From Syntrophorhabdaceae bacterium (GTDB taxonomy: Bacteria > Desulfobacterota > Syntrophorhabdia > Syntrophorhabdales > Syntrophorhabdaceae): a stretch of DNA of 64,000 bases. The translations under genes were made by a program, and so were the position numbers. Shown piece by piece: positions 1,970 to 10,102 of this stretch (its first letter is position 1; each line of letters starts with the position of its first letter). The stretch spans positions 1 to 64,000 of the forward strand of contig DATKMQ010000055.1 in the NCBI GenBank assembly GCA_035541755.1, written 5' to 3'. The notes under the pieces are model-generated. The model was given only the letters and a program-made list of their open reading frames with translations. It had not been told where the DNA came from and searched no databases.

Positions 1970-3259
1970 ATGGAAAAGATTGACGTTGTCGTAGTGGGTG
2001 CCGGACTCGCGGGACTTTCCTGCGCATACAAGCTCGCCGAAAAAGGGCTTCAAGTTATCGTTGTAGAGAGAGGAGATTTCCCCGGGAGCAAAAACGTGAC
2101 CGGCGGACGCCTTTACACTCTGCCGATAAAGCCTTTTATCGGCGATATGCTTGACGAAGCTCCTTTCGAGAGGCAGGTCGTTCGTGAGCGTCTGAGCCTT
2201 CTCGCGAAAGAGAATTCGATCACCGTAGATTTTACCGGTGATCGATTAAGAAGAGAGGGGCACAGCTACACGGTGCTCCGCGCGCGCTTTGACAGATGGC
2301 TCTCGGAAAAGTTGACGTCAAAGGGCGTTTTCGTCATATCCAGGCATAAGGTTGACGATTTGATCTGGGAGGAAGGCTTGGTGTCAGGTATCAGGGCAGG
2401 CAGCGAGGAGATTCGCGCTCACGTCGTGGTCGCATCGGATGGTGTGCTCTCGTTTATGGCGGAAAAGGCAGGGCTCAAATCCAGGCTGGCACCAGAGAGA
2501 TACGCCCTGGCTATGAAAGAGATCATAGAACTGCCCGAGGGAAAGATAAATGACAGATTCAACGTAGAGACGGGCCAAGGCGTTGCACACCTATTTGCAG
2601 GTGACGTAACAAAGGGTATTTTCGGAGGTGGATTTCTTTATACCAACAGAGATACGGTTTCCATAGGCGTGGTGGCCGGTATAGAGGGGCTCATGGAAAG
2701 GACCCCTCCTATTGATGCGTACACCCTGATTGACGCCTTCAAAGAACGCTACGAGATAAGAAGGCTCTTGGACGGAGGAAATCTCGTCGAATATTCGGCC
2801 CACATCATACCCGAGGGCGGATATAAATCCCTCTCCAAGCTCTATGGCAACGGTATCATCGTAACCGGGGACGCGGCCGGTTTTGCGCTGAACATGGGTG
2901 TCACGGTGCGCGGTATGGATTTTGCGATAGTTTCCGGAATCCTTGCTGCTGAGACCATTTTTCAAGCGAAAGACAGGGGAGATTTTTCTGCGGCGAGCCT
3001 CGCATCATACGAAAAACGATTGCGAGAAACCTTCGTATTGCAGGACTTCGAGGCCTCCCGCGAGATGACCGAATATCTTGAGCACGAAGACTTCTTTTCC
3101 TTCTATCCCGAACGTTTTCCCGGTTTTTTGGAAAAGATCATGTGGTTCGGGGAAGGCCCTAAGGAGAGATTAGGAAGATCCCTGTGGAATGAACTCAAGT
3201 CATCAGGCATGCTCAGTTTTAAAAGAATAAAAGACCTCTACCATATAAGAAAGATCTGA
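1970..3259 (+). CDS. fixC: FixC-like ETF:quinone oxidoreductase flavoprotein, copy 1
   Basis: FAD-dependent oxidoreductase of the FixC/ETF-QO family, 429 aa. The N-terminal dinucleotide-binding motif VVGAGLAGLSCAYKLAEKG is followed by an acidic end of strand 2 (VVERGDFPGSKNVTGG), typical of FixC. A second FAD contact, GIIVTGDAAGFALNMG, lies near residues 300-320. It takes electrons from the ETF and, with the small FixX ferredoxin next to it, hands them to membrane quinone; FixC lacks the iron-sulfur domain found in mitochondrial ETF-QO. The ATG is one base after the etfA stop, which suggests translational coupling. Confidence 0.93.
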   Translation: MEKIDVVVVGAGLAGLSCAYKLAEKGLQVIVVERGDFPGSKNVTGGRLYTLPIKPFIGDMLDEAPFERQVVRERLSLLAKENSITVDFTGDRLRREGHSYTVLRARFDRWLSEKLTSKGVFVISRHKVDDLIWEEGLVSGIRAGSEEIRAHVVVASDGVLSFMAEKAGLKSRLAPERYALAMKEIIELPEGKINDRFNVETGQGVAHLFAGDVTKGIFGGGFLYTNRDTVSIGVVAGIEGLMERTPPIDAYTLIDAFKERYEIRRLLDGGNLVEYSAHIIPEGGYKSLSKLYGNGIIVTGDAAGFALNMGVTVRGMDFAIVSGILAAETIFQAKDRGDFSAASLASYEKRLRETFVLQDFEASREMTEYLEHEDFFSFYPERFPGFLEKIMWFGEGPKERLGRSLWNELKSSGMLSFKRIKDLYHIRKI

Positions 3260-3271
3260 GGTGGATAGAAT

Positions 3272-3550
3272 ATGCGCATAGACGAAAAGCTGGCCCTCGA
3301 TGCCTTTAAGACCGATAAGGAAAGCCATATCAGGATTGATCATGCGACATGCAGGGCAAAGTGTACCACCAGGTACTGCTTGTTTGTGTGCCCCGGTCAC
3401 CTGTACGAATATGATGAGGAACACGACGAAATGAAAGTAGAGTACGCAGGATGCCTCGAATGCGGCACATGTATGGTTGCGTGCAAAGAGGGTGCGATCA
3501 ACTGGGTTTACCCGCGCGGCGAATTCGGCGTTCAGTATCGACATGGTTAG
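3272..3550 (+). CDS. fixX: FixX-like ferredoxin, copy 1
   Basis: Ferredoxin-like protein of 92 aa, the usual FixX size. Cysteines fall in two groups: C-x3-C-x4-C-x3-CP at about residues 28-40 and GCLECGTCMVACKEGAINW at about 62-80, the latter a canonical 4Fe-4S arrangement. It follows fixC by 12 bases with a GAGGTGG ribosome site. It should carry the iron-sulfur cluster of the ETF:quinone oxidoreductase. A second FixX at 9033-9314 shares the same ending (G-Y/V-S/Q-H/Y-R-x-G). Confidence 0.92.
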   Translation: MRIDEKLALDAFKTDKESHIRIDHATCRAKCTTRYCLFVCPGHLYEYDEEHDEMKVEYAGCLECGTCMVACKEGAINWVYPRGEFGVQYRHG

Positions 3551-3574
3551 GCTCACTCGTAATGATCCGGCTTC

Positions 3575-3591
3575 ATTGGCTTTTTGCCAAT
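3575..3591 (+). terminator. Weak hairpin after the first ETF operon
   Basis: A 6-bp perfect stem ATTGGC / GCCAAT with a TTTTT loop lies 25 bases after fixX. It has no clear T-run after it, so it is at best a weak terminator or a transcript 3-prime end stabiliser. Confidence 0.25.
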
Positions 3592-3685
3592 ACAACCCAA
3601 TTTATTCTGAAAGTTTTTGGATAATTTCCTCACCTATTACTTAAAGTGTACAATTAAACTGCGTGATTAGACTCACATTTTTTTC

Positions 3686-3713
3686 TTGACAATTGTTTTA
3701 AACTGTATATTAT
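3686..3713 (+). promoter_or_regulatory. Sigma70 promoter of the cyclase gene
   Basis: TTGACA (3686-3691), 16-nt spacer, TATTAT (3708-3713). The expected start of transcription, about 3720, is only some 14 bases before the ATG at 3734, leaving almost no leader and no visible Shine-Dalgarno sequence. Confidence 0.6.
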
Positions 3714-3733
3714 TTACTCTATGACGGTATGCC

Positions 3734-5275
3734 ATGCAAGATACCAAGAGTGATAATTTGCAGTTTAAGAGCGAAAATGAAAAGTGGATCAGTAGCGAGG
3801 AGTTGCTGAGCAAGTGCGACATCTCTCGATCCACCCTGAATAACTACATAAAGGTAGGTATCGTACCAAGACCAAATATCATAAAGAATGCCGATGAAAG
3901 CTTGGTCGTTTGTTTCCCCATAGGGGTTGTGGATATAGTCAACAAGGTGAAGCGGGCTAGGGATGAGGGGGAAACAATGGAGGAAATCATCAAACGGATG
4001 AAGGAGCAGCAGGCAGACGATCATAGCGTTCAAATCGACAAAAAAAACACGCTCTTAGACGAAAAAGTTAAGAAAATACTGGAAATAGGTGGCAACGGAC
4101 TGCGGCTCACTTTGGAGGACCTCCGTACTCCCGCCTATCTTCTCAACTATCAATTCGAAATTGAATGGATCAATGCACAGGCCGAAGAGTCAATCTTTGG
4201 TAAAAGCATCAAGACGATCAGGGATGTTGAATACAGGAACGTTTTTCGTCTGTTTCTCAACTGGGAATTCAGCCATTTCATAAAGAACTGGGAAGAATTC
4301 CTCAACTATCACATGACCTTTTTCAGGGCAAAATCGAAGAAGGAGAATATCGACAGTCTTTACACGGGCATATCCGGTAAGGAAGTAGATTACCTGCAGA
4401 AGGCCTTCGATAAGGCCAAGGATATACCCATGGAAAAGATCTACCAACAGCCCGTCACCGTTGCGGAAAAGGGTAAGCCCGAGGAAAAGTACGTTACCTA
4501 TACGACGTTTTTTAGAGAAGGTATGTTCTTCCTCTATTTGTCGGCCGATAACGTGCCCGAAGGCATCACCGAGTACCTGTCGAACCGTGAGATGGTGGTG
4601 AGAGACCTCTTGCAAAAAAGACTGCCGACTCTTGTTTCGTTCAGCGTACTGGTCGCTGACCTTCAGAGTTCTGTGCGCATATGTGCCGAGCTCCAACCGG
4701 AAGAATATTTCGAACTGATAAACTCTATGTGGAGGCTCCTCGAAGAGTCCTTCAAGAAATTCAATGGTATCTTTGGAAAGCGGATAGGCGATGGTGTTGT
4801 CTATTACTTTCTCAAGAAGCAGGATCCCAATTACATCATGAATTCGATCAACTGTGCACTGGAGATTCGTGAAAGAATGGAACGGTTCTCCAGCGAGTGG
4901 AAGATTCGTAAGAAATGGATCAATGACCTTTACCTCAATATGGGTATCAATGAGGGCCGTGAATATTTCAGTACAACCACCCCGTCGTCGACGAACGTAG
5001 AGTTTACCGCCCTGGGCGACACCATCAACTACGCTTCGAGACTCTCAAATCTGGCCCGGTTTGGCTCGATTATTACGACGAAAAACCTTATGAACGAACT
5101 CACCGAAGAAAATAGGAACACGCTACGTTTCGGCGTAACCAAACGGATCCATGACAGAGATGTCTTTGTTGAGAAAGTCTTCTCGCGCGTGGTCGATCTC
5201 GCGAGCGGTGATGACACAAGCAAACAGAGATTTGTTGATATTGCGGCCCTTCCGGTCACGGAGATTATCGGATAG
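3734..5275 (+). CDS. MerR-like HTH / PAS-like / class III nucleotidyl cyclase fusion
   Basis: Three-part protein of 513 aa. Residues about 17-75 look like a MerR-type winged HTH (WISSEELLSKCDISRSTLNNYI). Residues about 125-235 resemble the PAS-like ligand domain seen in MmyB-type regulators (TPAYLLNYQFEIEWINAQAE, then RNVFRLFLN). Residues about 300-490 form a class III adenylate/guanylate cyclase domain: the metal Asp in VLVADLQSS (about 308), the substrate Lys and second metal Asp in GKRIGDGVVYYF (about 352), and the transition-state Asn/Arg in LGDTINYASRL (about 428). All key catalytic residues are present, so it probably makes a cyclic nucleotide. It sits alone between two ETF/FixCX operons with its own promoter. 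Substrate (ATP or GTP) and ligand are unknown. No membrane segment seen. Confidence 0.85.
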   Translation: MQDTKSDNLQFKSENEKWISSEELLSKCDISRSTLNNYIKVGIVPRPNIIKNADESLVVCFPIGVVDIVNKVKRARDEGETMEEIIKRMKEQQADDHSVQIDKKNTLLDEKVKKILEIGGNGLRLTLEDLRTPAYLLNYQFEIEWINAQAEESIFGKSIKTIRDVEYRNVFRLFLNWEFSHFIKNWEEFLNYHMTFFRAKSKKENIDSLYTGISGKEVDYLQKAFDKAKDIPMEKIYQQPVTVAEKGKPEEKYVTYTTFFREGMFFLYLSADNVPEGITEYLSNREMVVRDLLQKRLPTLVSFSVLVADLQSSVRICAELQPEEYFELINSMWRLLEESFKKFNGIFGKRIGDGVVYYFLKKQDPNYIMNSINCALEIRERMERFSSEWKIRKKWINDLYLNMGINEGREYFSTTTPSSTNVEFTALGDTINYASRLSNLARFGSIITTKNLMNELTEENRNTLRFGVTKRIHDRDVFVEKVFSRVVDLASGDDTSKQRFVDIAALPVTEIIG

Positions 5276-5619
5276 GCGTGATCGGTATATAAGCGGCCCG
5301 CAAAAGCAATCCTAAACAAATTTATATCCAGCAAGCCCTAACGTCGGACTCTTTCGTCGCAACCCGAGCCTGGTATCGCGCGCAATTGCCCTTGACGCAT
5401 CTTTTCTCACCTCCTGCGACCACGGCCTTTCGGCCGCCTTGTAAGGTGCGCTTAAGCCCGTGCTGCGCAATTACGCGGCCTTTCTTGGCCGATAGGCGAG
5501 CCTCGGAAATCTTCGATAGCGGTCGCCATGCCTGGCTATCTATCTTTTTGTACTTATATTATATGAGATGAGCATAGGTCGATCCGTAATTCGTATTCTT
5601 AACTGACGAAGGATGTGGC
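5276..5619 (+). other. Intergenic region with two small GGCC hairpins
   Basis: There is no convincing gene here. Two short hairpins of like design occur: GGCC-TTTC-GGCC at 5424-5435 and GGCC-TTTCTT-GGCC at 5477-5490. An AT-rich stretch near 5545-5570 (TTGTAC, then TATATT/TATTAT at poor spacing) may hold the promoter of the second ETF operon. A 61-codon reading frame at 5386 has no ribosome site and no recognisable sequence. Confidence 0.4.
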
Positions 5620-6456
5620 ATGCACGTTGTCTGTTGCATAAAGCAGGTACCTGATACTGCGGAGGTGAAGATTGATCCGGAAACCAATACGCTGATTCGG
5701 GCAGGGGTAGAGTCGATCGCCAATCCTTATGATATGGTGGCCCTTGAGGCGGCATTATCCATAAAAGACAGGTACGGCGGACGCGTCACCGCAGTGAGTA
5801 TGGGACCGCCTCAAGCCGAAGAGGTGTTAAGAGAGGCAATAGCCCTGGGCGCTGATCAGGCAGTGCTTCTTTCTGACCGGGCGTTTGCCGGGGCCGATAC
5901 GCTCGCGACGGGCTATACGCTTACAAAGGCCATCGAGCATATCGGACGTACTAACCCCGTGGATCTGATTCTCTGTGGAAAGCAGGCCATCGACGGAGAT
6001 ACCGCCCAGGTTGGACCGGGTGTCGCCACCGGCCTCGGTTATACCCAGTTGACCTATGTTGTTAAGATCAGAGAGATTGATGAAAAAGCCCGTACCATCA
6101 CGGTAGAGCGGAAAGTCGAAGGCGGCTCGCAAGTCGTCCGGGGTGTAATTCCCGCCGTGCTTACCTGTGAGCTCGATCTCGCGAAGCCGAGACGGGCTTC
6201 TCTTCCCCGGCTCATGCATTCCATCCGGATTGATATTCCTGTATGGAACGGTGCAACCATCGAGGCGGACCCCGATAGGCTCGGCTTAAAGGGCTCTCCC
6301 ACGTGGGTGAGAAAGATATTCTCCCCTCCTCTGAAGCAAGGAGGACCGCTTCTTGACGCTCGCGATGAAGTTGACGAGGCAGTGGAGAAGTGCCTGAGCA
6401 TCATACTGCTCGATGAAACATTTGCCTCAAAGTTGCTGAAGCGCGAGGTGCTCTGA
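5620..6456 (+). CDS. etfB: Electron transfer flavoprotein beta subunit (FixA-type), copy 2
   Basis: ETF beta subunit, 278 aa, starting MHVVCCIKQVPDTAEVKIDP, a typical ETF-beta/FixA opening. The CGKQAIDGDTAQVGPGVATG stretch near residue 120 is the conserved signature; the spacing of motifs matches copy 1 (183-974) but the sequences differ clearly throughout, so this is an old paralogue and not a recent duplication. It leads the second etfB-etfA-fixC-fixX operon and should pair with the ferredoxin-bearing alpha subunit 5 bases downstream. Confidence 0.95.
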   Translation: MHVVCCIKQVPDTAEVKIDPETNTLIRAGVESIANPYDMVALEAALSIKDRYGGRVTAVSMGPPQAEEVLREAIALGADQAVLLSDRAFAGADTLATGYTLTKAIEHIGRTNPVDLILCGKQAIDGDTAQVGPGVATGLGYTQLTYVVKIREIDEKARTITVERKVEGGSQVVRGVIPAVLTCELDLAKPRRASLPRLMHSIRIDIPVWNGATIEADPDRLGLKGSPTWVRKIFSPPLKQGGPLLDARDEVDEAVEKCLSIILLDETFASKLLKREVL

Positions 6457-6461
6457 ACGAT

Positions 6462-7727
6462 ATGCCTAAGAATTCAAAGGGTATCGAAATAGCCGAGATT
6501 ATTTCCGACAAGTGTATCGGATGTCAGATCTGTGTTGCTGAATGCCCTGTGGGTGCGATTGAGATGTCCGGTGGCACTGCGGTCATAGATCCCGAAGTCT
6601 GCATCGGCTGCGGCAAATGTTTCGATGTCTGTCCTGTGAATGCCGTCAAGTTTGAAAGGATACGGCGAAAGGGAACCACCATCAGGAAGGAAGAGACCGT
6701 AAACGTTGCCCTTGCCAACTATCAGGGCGTTGCCATCTTTATTGAGATAAGGGATGGTCGGGGGGCACCGGTTTCATGGGAGCTTGCCGGGGCGGCATGT
6801 GAATTGGCGCAAAAGCTCAAGACCAAAGTGATCGGTTTTCTTATCGGCAGGGATGCGGGCCATATCGCTCAAGAGGCAATCGCGTACGGATGTGACGAAG
6901 TCCATGTAGTTGACGACCCTTTGCTTGGAACCTATTTTTCAAAGTCTTACGGGGCTGCGCTGGCCAACCTCTGTCGCACCGTGAAACCGGCGATCGTACT
7001 CATCGGAGCCACGTCCGTCGGCAGGGATTTGGCGAGCGTGGTCGCCACCGAGATTCAAACAGGACTGACGGCGGACTGCACAAGCCTTGATATCGATGAA
7101 GAAAAGAAGATGCTCCTCATGACAAGACCCACATTCGGAGGTAACATCATGGCCACCATCTTCTGTGAGCGCCATCGCCCGCAGATGAGCACGGTTCGGC
7201 CAAAAGTCTTCCGGCTTCATCCGAAGGACAATACCAGGACGGGCAGTATATACGCATATCCGTACACGCCTCCCCTGGGAGCTGTTCCCGAGATCATTGA
7301 TTTCATAAGGGATGCGGCAGATACGGACGCCGTTGATATCACAAGGTTTCCTGCGCTCGTTGTCGCGGGAAAGGGGGCGTGTGATCCCGAGACCATGCCC
7401 ATGCTTCAACAACTTGCCGATCTCGTCGGAGGGGTGGTAGCGTGTTCAAGGCCTGTTGTCGAAGCCGGTTTGATGCCCTACGAGCGTCAGGTCGGCCAGA
7501 CGGGGAAGACCGTGGCGCCGGATCTCTATCTCGCAATCGGGGTGTCAGGGGCCGTACAGCATCTTGTGGGCATGCAGGGTTCAGCCAAGGTCGTTGCGGT
7601 TAACTCCGATCCGAGGGCGCCCATCTTCAGTGTTGCTGATGCGGGGATCGTGGGCGACTACAGACAGGTAGTGCCGGTGATGATCGAAAAGTTGCGGATA
7701 CGGGCAAACCGTATCAGATCAGGATAA
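6462..7727 (+). CDS. etfA: ETF alpha subunit with N-terminal 2x[4Fe-4S] ferredoxin domain, copy 2
   Basis: ETF alpha subunit of 421 aa, about 95 residues longer than copy 1. The extra N-terminus carries two ferredoxin motifs, CIGCQICVAECPVGA (about 20-34) and CIGCGKCFDVCPVNA (about 47-61). The rest is a standard alpha subunit ending in the FAD domain (VVAGKGACDPETM, YERQVGQTGKTVAPDLYLA, IGVSGAVQHLVGM, NSDPRAPIFSVADAGIVGD). Ferredoxin-extended EtfA proteins are known in strict anaerobes, where the clusters give an extra electron entry or exit. Together with FixCX it could link ferredoxin, a soluble donor and quinone. The ATG lies 5 bases after the etfB stop. Confidence 0.94.
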   Translation: MPKNSKGIEIAEIISDKCIGCQICVAECPVGAIEMSGGTAVIDPEVCIGCGKCFDVCPVNAVKFERIRRKGTTIRKEETVNVALANYQGVAIFIEIRDGRGAPVSWELAGAACELAQKLKTKVIGFLIGRDAGHIAQEAIAYGCDEVHVVDDPLLGTYFSKSYGAALANLCRTVKPAIVLIGATSVGRDLASVVATEIQTGLTADCTSLDIDEEKKMLLMTRPTFGGNIMATIFCERHRPQMSTVRPKVFRLHPKDNTRTGSIYAYPYTPPLGAVPEIIDFIRDAADTDAVDITRFPALVVAGKGACDPETMPMLQQLADLVGGVVACSRPVVEAGLMPYERQVGQTGKTVAPDLYLAIGVSGAVQHLVGMQGSAKVVAVNSDPRAPIFSVADAGIVGDYRQVVPVMIEKLRIRANRIRSG

Positions 7728-7731
7728 TGAT

Positions 7732-9036
7732 ATGCAGGAAAGATTTGATGTAGCCATCGTGGGCGCGGGACCGGCAGGCATCTCGGCGGCATATATCCTC
7801 GCCAGCAAAGGCATTAAGACGGTAATTTTTGAGCGGGGAATGTATCCCGGGGCCAAGAATATTTCGGGAGGCGTTCTCTACGGACATGACCTGGCGGAGA
7901 TTATCCCGGATTTCATGGACCGGGATTGCCCCGTTGAGCGCAATATCATTGAATCACGACTCTGGTATCTCGCGAGGGATGGCGGATATAGCGTGGCCTT
8001 TAGGGATAGGGTATTCGCAGAGAAAAAACCGTTCAATTCGTTTACGGTTGGGCGGGCAAAATTCGACCGGTGGTTTGCGAATCAAGCACAATCACAGGGC
8101 GTCCTTCTTGTGCCAGGCACGGTGGTGACGGGTTTACTCAGAAACAGCCGGAACCACGTCGTCGGTATTCAAACGGATCGCCCCGATGGAGCAACGGAAT
8201 CAAGGGTGGTGTTGCTTGGCGACGGAATCAACTCGGCCCTCGCGGCTAAGACAGGATTTCGTCCTGAGCCGCGGCCTCGTGATGTGGCGCTTGCGGTCAA
8301 AGAGGTTATTGAGCTATCCGAGGAGACGATCAATGAGCGGTTCGGGGTGACAACAGGCCAGGGGGTGACTGCAGAAATCTTGGGGGAGATGACCGGCGGC
8401 ATGGACGGCATCGCGGTGATCTACACGAATAAAAAGTCTCTCTCCCTTTGCATAGGGGCCAATCTTTCCGACCTTATGGAACGGAAGATCAGACCGTATG
8501 AAATGCTGGAAGAGTTTAAATCCCACCCCATGGTAGTGCCTCTGATCAAAGACGGGCAACCCAAGGAATACATGGCCCATTGGATAGCCGAGGGTGGGTA
8601 CGACAGTATCCCCCGGCTCTCAGGCGACGGGTTTCTTATTGCCGGTGATTCCGGTATGTTGTTTAACGCCCTGCACCGCGAGGGGTCTAATATGGCGATG
8701 ACGTCCGGCCGGTTAGCAGCCGAGACCATTATCGAAGCTTTCAATAAGGGCGACTTCACGCAACACGGATTGGCGGGCTACGCGGATCGGTTGCGGAACT
8801 CCTATATCATGCCTGATATGAAGAAGTACCGGGGCTTCAACGAATTCCGGCTTCACCATCATGAACTTTTTACGGTGCTGCCTGAGCTCGCAAGCTTTGC
8901 AGCCCGTCAAATGCTTACCGTGGACGGAAAGCCGAAGAAGGTGAAACAAAAAGCCATTTGGAGAAAGATCAGGCGAGATATCTCACTACGAAGATTGCTT
9001 AAGATCTTCTGGCACGGATTAAGGAGTGTAAGATGA
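7732..9036 (+). CDS. fixC: FixC-like ETF:quinone oxidoreductase flavoprotein, copy 2
   Basis: FixC-type flavoprotein of 434 aa. N-terminal FAD motif VAIVGAGPAGISAAYILASKG, then FERGMYPGAKNISGG, and GFLIAGDSGMLFNA near residue 305. It is related to copy 1 over its whole length (for example the paired EAGGYDS/EGGYKS regions and MAMTSGRLAAETI) but is clearly divergent. It probably receives electrons from the ferredoxin-type ETF upstream and reduces quinone with the FixX protein whose start overlaps its stop by 4 bases (ATGA). Confidence 0.93.
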   Translation: MQERFDVAIVGAGPAGISAAYILASKGIKTVIFERGMYPGAKNISGGVLYGHDLAEIIPDFMDRDCPVERNIIESRLWYLARDGGYSVAFRDRVFAEKKPFNSFTVGRAKFDRWFANQAQSQGVLLVPGTVVTGLLRNSRNHVVGIQTDRPDGATESRVVLLGDGINSALAAKTGFRPEPRPRDVALAVKEVIELSEETINERFGVTTGQGVTAEILGEMTGGMDGIAVIYTNKKSLSLCIGANLSDLMERKIRPYEMLEEFKSHPMVVPLIKDGQPKEYMAHWIAEGGYDSIPRLSGDGFLIAGDSGMLFNALHREGSNMAMTSGRLAAETIIEAFNKGDFTQHGLAGYADRLRNSYIMPDMKKYRGFNEFRLHHHELFTVLPELASFAARQMLTVDGKPKKVKQKAIWRKIRRDISLRRLLKIFWHGLRSVR

Positions 9037-9314: not shown

Positions 9315-9468
9315 ACAGACACACCGTTACGGTCAGTCGCGTTAAGATCGCATGCTGCAGTGCCCCTTGAAAGTGCGCCTTATGATGACTTATCTTCGAT
9401 AATAGGATGCAGGTTCTAAACGGGGCGGAAAGCAACACTCTCGAATGGGCGAAGAAGGTGAGCCAATC

Positions 9469-9582
9469 ATGGAGCGATCAAATCTGTGGGTCAAGACTTC
9501 TTTCTTAAGACCCCTGTGGTGGGTCATTCACTTCGTCGGCATATCGGCGGTCTACGCAATCGGTCATTTGCTGTGGAGATAA
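9469..9582 (+). CDS. Micro-membrane protein A (37 aa)
   Basis: A 37-aa reading frame starting ATG at 9469 with an AAGGTGAG ribosome site about 9 bases upstream. The protein (MERSNLWVKTSFL..., then RPLWWVIHF and YAIGHLLWR) has one predicted membrane helix of about 20 residues, basic ends and two histidines at the helix borders. It is one base from the start of a second micro-protein with the same pattern (P-x-WW-x-I/L-H, then Y-x-x-GH). Conservation of that pattern, tight spacing and good ribosome sites argue it is real. Function unknown; histidines at both ends of the helix would suit a haem or quinone site in a small respiratory subunit (speculation). Confidence 0.6.
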   Translation: MERSNLWVKTSFLRPLWWVIHFVGISAVYAIGHLLWR

Positions 9583-9583
9583 C

Positions 9584-9685
9584 ATGATACGCCACTTCAT
9601 GAGATTCAAGCCGGGCTGGTGGATTCTGCACGCGGCTGCGGTGGCCTTTACGCTCTACCTGGGACATGCGGTCAAATTCTTTTGA
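9584..9685 (+). CDS. Micro-membrane protein B (33 aa)
   Basis: A 33-aa frame starting at ATG 9584, one base after the stop of protein A, with GGAGAT just upstream. The sequence MIRHFMRFKPGWWILH runs into a helix and ends YLGHAVKFF. It shares with protein A the motif P-x-WW-x-I/L-H and, about 12 residues later, Y-x-x-GH, so the two look like a tandem duplication that has diverged. The next gene starts 3 bases after its stop. Function unknown. Confidence 0.58.
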   Translation: MIRHFMRFKPGWWILHAAAVAFTLYLGHAVKFF

Positions 9686-9688
9686 CGG

Positions 9689-10102
9689 ATGGGAAACATG
9701 ATAAGAAGATCGCTCATCTTTGCCCTCCTTTTTCTCGCGCTCGGCGGCTTTATGCTGCACTTGAGAATACATCACTTTATGATCGCCGACAAAATGAGTC
9801 CCGGAGCGCTTCATTTCAGTGGGACATATTTCTTGTCGAATCTTATGCCTTTCATCGATGTGTTTCTGGTGACAACCCTCTTCCTGTTCAGAAAAACGGC
9901 CGCATACGGGTATCTGTTAAACGGCCTCATCGTTATATTCGGTACCATATTGATGACCCATTTTAGCATCGCCTCTTTTATGGTCAAGCACGTCCCCCCG
10001 AGTCAGTGGATTATGAATTCCTTGCTACCTGACATCGGCGTGGCGTGGGCTGATTTCTTTGTAGGCAAGGCCCTGTACGACTACTACCTGGGTCGAACCT
10101 GA
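9689..10102 (+). CDS. Membrane protein of unknown function (137 aa)
   Basis: A 137-aa protein with about four hydrophobic segments (near residues 8-24, 48-66, 72-95 and 105-128). The first helix ends in the histidine-rich stretch MLHLRIHHFM. It begins 3 bases after micro-protein B and so ends a chain of three tightly packed membrane-protein genes behind the second ETF operon (gap of 154 bases). I do not recognise a family. Its last 19 bases overlap the 3-prime end of the convergent carboxypeptidase gene. Confidence 0.7.
   Translation: MGNMIRRSLIFALLFLALGGFMLHLRIHHFMIADKMSPGALHFSGTYFLSNLMPFIDVFLVTTLFLFRKTAAYGYLLNGLIVIFGTILMTHFSIASFMVKHVPPSQWIMNSLLPDIGVAWADFFVGKALYDYYLGRT

Follow-up and report, generated by a model that had tools for sequence, protein, structure and literature searches.

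The window analysed here, a stretch of 64,000 nucleotides from a Syntrophorhabdaceae bacterium, carries three small genes in tandem on its forward strand, which we name m1, m2 and P. The m1 gene (positions 9469-9582) encodes a single-helix protein of 37 amino acids, MERSNLWVKTSFLRPLWWVIHFVGISAVYAIGHLLWR, that resembles PsbE, the alpha subunit of cytochrome b559. The m2 gene (9584-9685) encodes a single-helix protein of 33 amino acids with a WWxxH motif, MIRHFMRFKPGWWILHAAAVAFTLYLGHAVKFF, that resembles the beta subunit, PsbF. As the preliminary description had it, the two frames of 37 and 33 codons lie one base apart, and each is preceded by a Shine-Dalgarno-like sequence (AAGGTGA and GGAG, respectively). 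The same description placed a membrane protein of 137 amino acids three bases further on. The frame, from 9689, holds up but its start does not: homologues begin at an ATG nine bases downstream, so that P most likely spans 9698-10102 and encodes a 134-amino-acid membrane protein with four predicted helices and an HxRxH motif. Between fixX and m1 (9315-9468, forward strand) there is no terminator-like site; a weak promoter-like site at 9367-9396 is a consensus match only and says nothing on function. Further upstream, positions 6462-7727 encode an EtfA/FixB protein with an N-terminal two-cluster ferredoxin domain. None of the three genes is named by any library searched, and the region has no match in Rfam.

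Comparing the window with its relative G019, pN/pS in the named frames is 0.25 for m1, 0.28 for m2 and 0.28 for P, against 1.1-2.0 when this DNA is read in its other two frames. Over pooled close pairs it is 0.26 for m1 and 0.17 for m2. Homologues of all three are grouped together in other genera and phyla. The codon-level test and the search of relatives proposed in the preliminary description thus both came out in favour of the short frames: m1, m2 and P are real genes under purifying selection.

A single scan covering 84,980 species genomes recovered 72 P loci. Going by the titles of the records, which are mostly metagenome bins, they belong to Nitrospirota, Desulfobacterota, Omnitrophota, Planctomycetota, Elusimicrobiota, Kiritimatiellota, Acidobacteriota, Aminicenantes, Riflebacteria, Armatimonadota and others. 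Relatives occur in the window's own family and phylum, with a patchy distribution in the latter (23 of 395 genomes). In nearly all loci where P is intact, m1 and m2 adjoin it or m1 is fused to it, the exceptions being the group in which P stands alone, a few loci at contig ends and a few without a detected m2; m2 homologues lie beside P in 62 of the 72 loci. Four arrangements can be distinguished: m1-m2-P as in the window (type A); P with m1 fused to its C-terminus, followed by m2 (type B, 41 of 72 loci); P, m1 and m2 all separate (type C, L071); and P alone (type D, seven loci). The fusion in 41 of 72 loci argues that m1, m2 and P very probably form one membrane complex. To this extent the earlier proposal of a small undescribed membrane complex is borne out: the genes are real and they are conserved as a unit.

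A tree built from few columns and with many open forks divides type A from types B plus D as two clades (100/100). Within the type A clade the window and G019 are placed among Nitrospirota while their family-mates carry type B, which suggests horizontal transfer. In G024 a degenerate P remnant of 75 amino acids (L019:8327-8554) lies between lolD and a glycosyltransferase gene, where the sister species G019 carries an intact m1-m2-P. At L063:5387-6500 the P-m1 fusion occurs twice in tandem, and the first copy has lost the arginine of HxRxH (HLLVH).

P is modelled by AlphaFold2 as four membrane helices (pLDDT 95.2, pTM 0.84). In the P-m1 fusion, m1 becomes a fifth helix of a single confident bundle (pLDDT 91.5, pTM 0.86). 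The conserved residues of P comprise HxRxH where helix 1 ends, MxHxS where helix 3 ends and an aspartate where helix 4 starts, and three histidines and the aspartate lie on one face of the protein. H26, H30 and M80 (L058 numbering) are invariant in 72 of 72 sequences, partly by selection in the case of H26 and H30, which belong to the motifs used to find the loci. H82 is histidine in 57 and aspartate in seven of the 65 sequences accompanied by m1/m2, and is mostly lost in the seven type D sequences. Searches of P against Pfam, NCBIfam, PHROGs and PDB sequences gave only scattered matches at chance level and no family; Foldseek returned nothing at E 0.001 or better. Fold searches brought up no specific relative, only four-helix bundles of a generic kind (best Z 10.5 for P-m1 and 11.3 for P), among them an artificial haem maquette, from which we read no function. 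On these comparisons P is an undescribed four-helix family.

The preliminary description noted a motif shared by m1 and m2, WW-H followed by GH, and took histidines at both ends of a single helix as typical of haem ligands. The first histidine is present in 64 of 64 m1 and 62 of 62 m2 sequences while its flanking residues vary, although the 126 of 126 must be read as an upper bound because the motif used to collect the sequences requires that residue. The glycine at +11 from this histidine is also nearly constant (63 of 64 m1, 59 of 61 m2). However, the residue after it is histidine in only 16 of 64 m1 and 34 of 62 m2 sequences. Only the first histidine is invariant, and since the second varies, the idea that a helix carries a haem ligand at either end is not supported. 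A role as haem ligand is the best reading for the invariant histidine of WWxxH; with just this N-terminal-side residue invariant, the pattern points to one haem shared between m1 and m2, in the manner of cytochrome b559.

In cytochrome b559, a single haem is shared by two single-helix proteins, PsbE and PsbF, each of which contributes one histidine. Like them, m1 and m2 are two distinct single-helix proteins encoded in tandem, each with one conserved histidine. The motif of both can be written as W-x-x-H, placed towards the N-terminus (the cytoplasmic or stromal side), with isoleucine or valine at +4 from the histidine, an aromatic residue at +8 and glycine at +11; in m1 of the window the tryptophan of WVIH is at -3 and the glycine at +11. 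The same spacing is found in PsbE (RYWVIHSITIPALFIAG) and PsbF (RWVAVHTLAVPTIFFLG). In an unbiased search of all 177,635 PDB sequences, the m2 profile gave 30 matches, all 30 to PsbF (best E 0.0021), which count as one family-level match because PsbF chains are near-identical. The m1 profile gave eight matches, seven of them to b559 (E 0.25-0.97), and its top match was a potassium channel (E 0.12). As a yardstick, a single PsbF sequence reaches PsbE at only E 0.045. Among single sequences, the b559 family PF00283 is the commonest Pfam match of m1 members (11 of 56, best E 0.001) and the second commonest of m2 members (9 of 53). In the reciprocal direction, a PsbE+PsbF profile run against 9317 open frames ranked m1/m2 sequences in all of the top 17 places and in 43 of the top 50. 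When the columns of this profile were permuted, the observed scores were reached in 0 of 120 trials, and in 1-3 of 120 with W, H and G held fixed. Profile-profile comparison with hhalign gave a probability of 95% for both m1 and m2 against b559, with decoys at 13% or below, and it separated the subunits, PsbE scoring higher with m1 and PsbF with m2.

No m1 or m2 match exceeded the curated cut-off of Pfam PF00283 or of NCBIfam, the best standing at about E 0.001. Over 18 whole genomes, the Pfam b559 model gave nothing above cut-off (0 of 18) and did not single out m1/m2, except weakly in G028. Since no curated cut-off was reached and the Pfam model did not discriminate within genomes, we describe the pair as b559-like without assigning it to the family. 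The type II reaction centre (PF00124, D1/D2) was absent from 16 of 16 hosts, with a Synechococcus control positive. The best reading of these comparisons is that the m1/m2 pair resembles cytochrome b559 alpha/beta, with no photosystem in the hosts tested, though convergence on a bis-histidine helix pair is possible because the segments compared are only about 22 residues long.

Further likenesses and differences can be named. Rubredoxin lies near psbEF in cyanobacteria, where the gene order is rubA-ycf48-psbEFLJ (PMC3772215), and in two relatives m1 carries a fused rubredoxin-like domain. Unlike b559, m1/m2 have the four-helix P as partner and no long lumenal tail such as that of PsbE, besides falling below every curated cut-off. 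Light-harvesting antenna alpha/beta helices, which bind bacteriochlorophyll, are also tandem single-helix proteins with one histidine each; however, m1/m2 matched no antenna chain in the PDB and no antenna family in Pfam, and the hosts tested have no type II reaction centre. Cytochromes b of the b561 and ferric-reductase types are small multi-helix membrane redox proteins, and a ferric-reductase-type flavocytochrome accompanies P at type D loci, but P matches neither family and its HxRxH at one helix end is unlike theirs.

Some neighbours of the unit are redox proteins. Only in L034 and L044 does m1 have the rubredoxin-like domain, fused at its N-terminal end (PF21349 RUBY_RBDX, 35.5 and 32.1 bits, cut-off 26.5; see PMC7020446), and as these are sister rows they count as one event. 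Desulfoferrodoxin is encoded near the unit in four loci (L024, L034, L044 and L076), the first of which also has rubrerythrin nearby. Homologous small cytochromes c lie just upstream of the unit in L024 and L122, and a tetrahaem cytochrome c lies upstream in L062, L064 and L089. A ferric-reductase-type flavocytochrome follows every type D P but that of L091; in L078, L084, L086, L087, L088, L090, L131 and L132 it is on the same strand and has FAD and NAD domains. Clustering of 747 neighbouring ORFs for recurrence revealed no general partner gene. Because most loci have unrelated neighbours instead, we treat the redox neighbours as hints only.

Two of these neighbourhoods can be described further, with names given by eye from sequence. 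In L122, from the complete genome G173, a run on one strand (about 3000-8444) encodes a YeeE/YedE-like transporter, a SirA-like protein, two DsrE-like proteins and the small cytochrome c, followed by m1-m2-P. In L062, L064 and L089, the latter two from Omnitrophota, the 6 kb upstream of the P-m1 fusion encode multihaem cytochromes c together with what may be a barrel protein of the outer membrane and a HAMP-like membrane protein.

The best explanation, which we consider probable, is that m1, m2 and P form an inner-membrane complex with a shared haem b that transfers electrons between quinone or periplasmic cytochrome c and rubredoxin-type proteins. All three proteins have lysine and arginine residues on the N-terminal side, which favour an orientation with the N-terminus inside. 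WWxxH would then lie near the cytoplasm and HxRxH of P would face outward. This would put WWxxH on the side of the fused rubredoxin and on that of the b559 haem, which is near the stromal side (PMC12661325). In such a complex m1 and m2 would be single-pass helices whose invariant histidines, one from each, together bind one b-type haem near the cytoplasmic face, as in PsbE/PsbF. The four-helix bundle of P would hold m1, to which it is fused in many relatives, and its periplasmic-side site may bind quinone or a metal, or contact cytochrome c. Electrons would pass between the quinone/cytochrome c pool and cytosolic rubredoxin-type proteins, redox partners that we infer from few loci. Defence against oxygen or superoxide may be the most likely use of the complex, a speculative suggestion with the chances well against it.

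A less likely, though appreciable, possibility is that the complex is real but that m1 and m2 play a structural part and bind no haem, with WWxxH serving as an anchor at the membrane face and packing on P, and the likeness to b559 a product of convergence. Tryptophan pairs are common at the membrane interface, and the shortness of the segments compared and their scores below the curated cut-offs fit this explanation as well. So does the haem supply of some hosts: G063, G064 and G430 have neither a convincing AhbD nor a ferrochelatase, which is evidence against haem unless it is taken up. Enzymes of haem b synthesis do occur in the window's own genome, which encodes AhbD-like and AhbC-like proteins (best match under the curated cut-off); a ferrochelatase was not found there. 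On the other hand, haem-free helices do not readily account for the constancy of the WWxxH histidine amid variable flanks, even as an upper bound in motif-selected sequences, or for a likeness to b559 that exceeds W, H and G alone and is specific to the subunit. Other histidine-bearing single helices in the PDB, such as antenna proteins, never appeared in the profile searches.

Two further explanations have less in their favour. P could be a transporter or channel for a metal or small molecule, its HxRxH binding a metal ion and m1 and m2 being accessory helices: the three histidines and aspartate on one face make a plausible metal site and the fold is generic. We think this improbable in view of the redox fusions and redox neighbours of the unit, and of the flavocytochrome that takes the place of m1/m2 beside type D P. 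Least likely by far is the tie to FixCX electron flow in the preliminary description, by which m1-m2-P would be a small cytochrome module of the FixCX/ETF path. In the window m1 does follow fixX by 154 bp on the same strand with no terminator-like site between them. However, EtfB, FixC and FixX are all missing from 97 loci (1.06 Mb) around relatives, where the cassette lies beside lolD, an acyltransferase gene, groEL, uvrC and others; the four EtfA matches there are short segments of 56-79 amino acids that we take to be its ferredoxin part. Membership in a FixCX/ETF system is not supported on this ground, and the position behind fixX therefore appears peculiar to this genome.

Cytochrome b559 is essential for photosystem II. 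No consensus exists on a redox role for it (PMC12661325), and a literature search found no report of b559 relatives outside oxygenic phototrophs. It is conceivable, although we would not wager on it, that b559 arose outside photosystem II, from an older and widespread two-microprotein haem b family of anaerobic bacteria that already had links with rubredoxin and with defence against oxygen or superoxide and was later recruited, together with its rubredoxin, by the ancestor of photosystem II. In addition, m1-m2-P is a membrane complex of many phyla that has gone unannotated, and two of its genes are small enough for gene finders to miss. With a b559-like pair in bacteria that have no photosystem, b559 chemistry could be studied apart from photosynthesis; such a pair would bear on the evolutionary assembly of photosystem II and make the role and origin of b559 testable.
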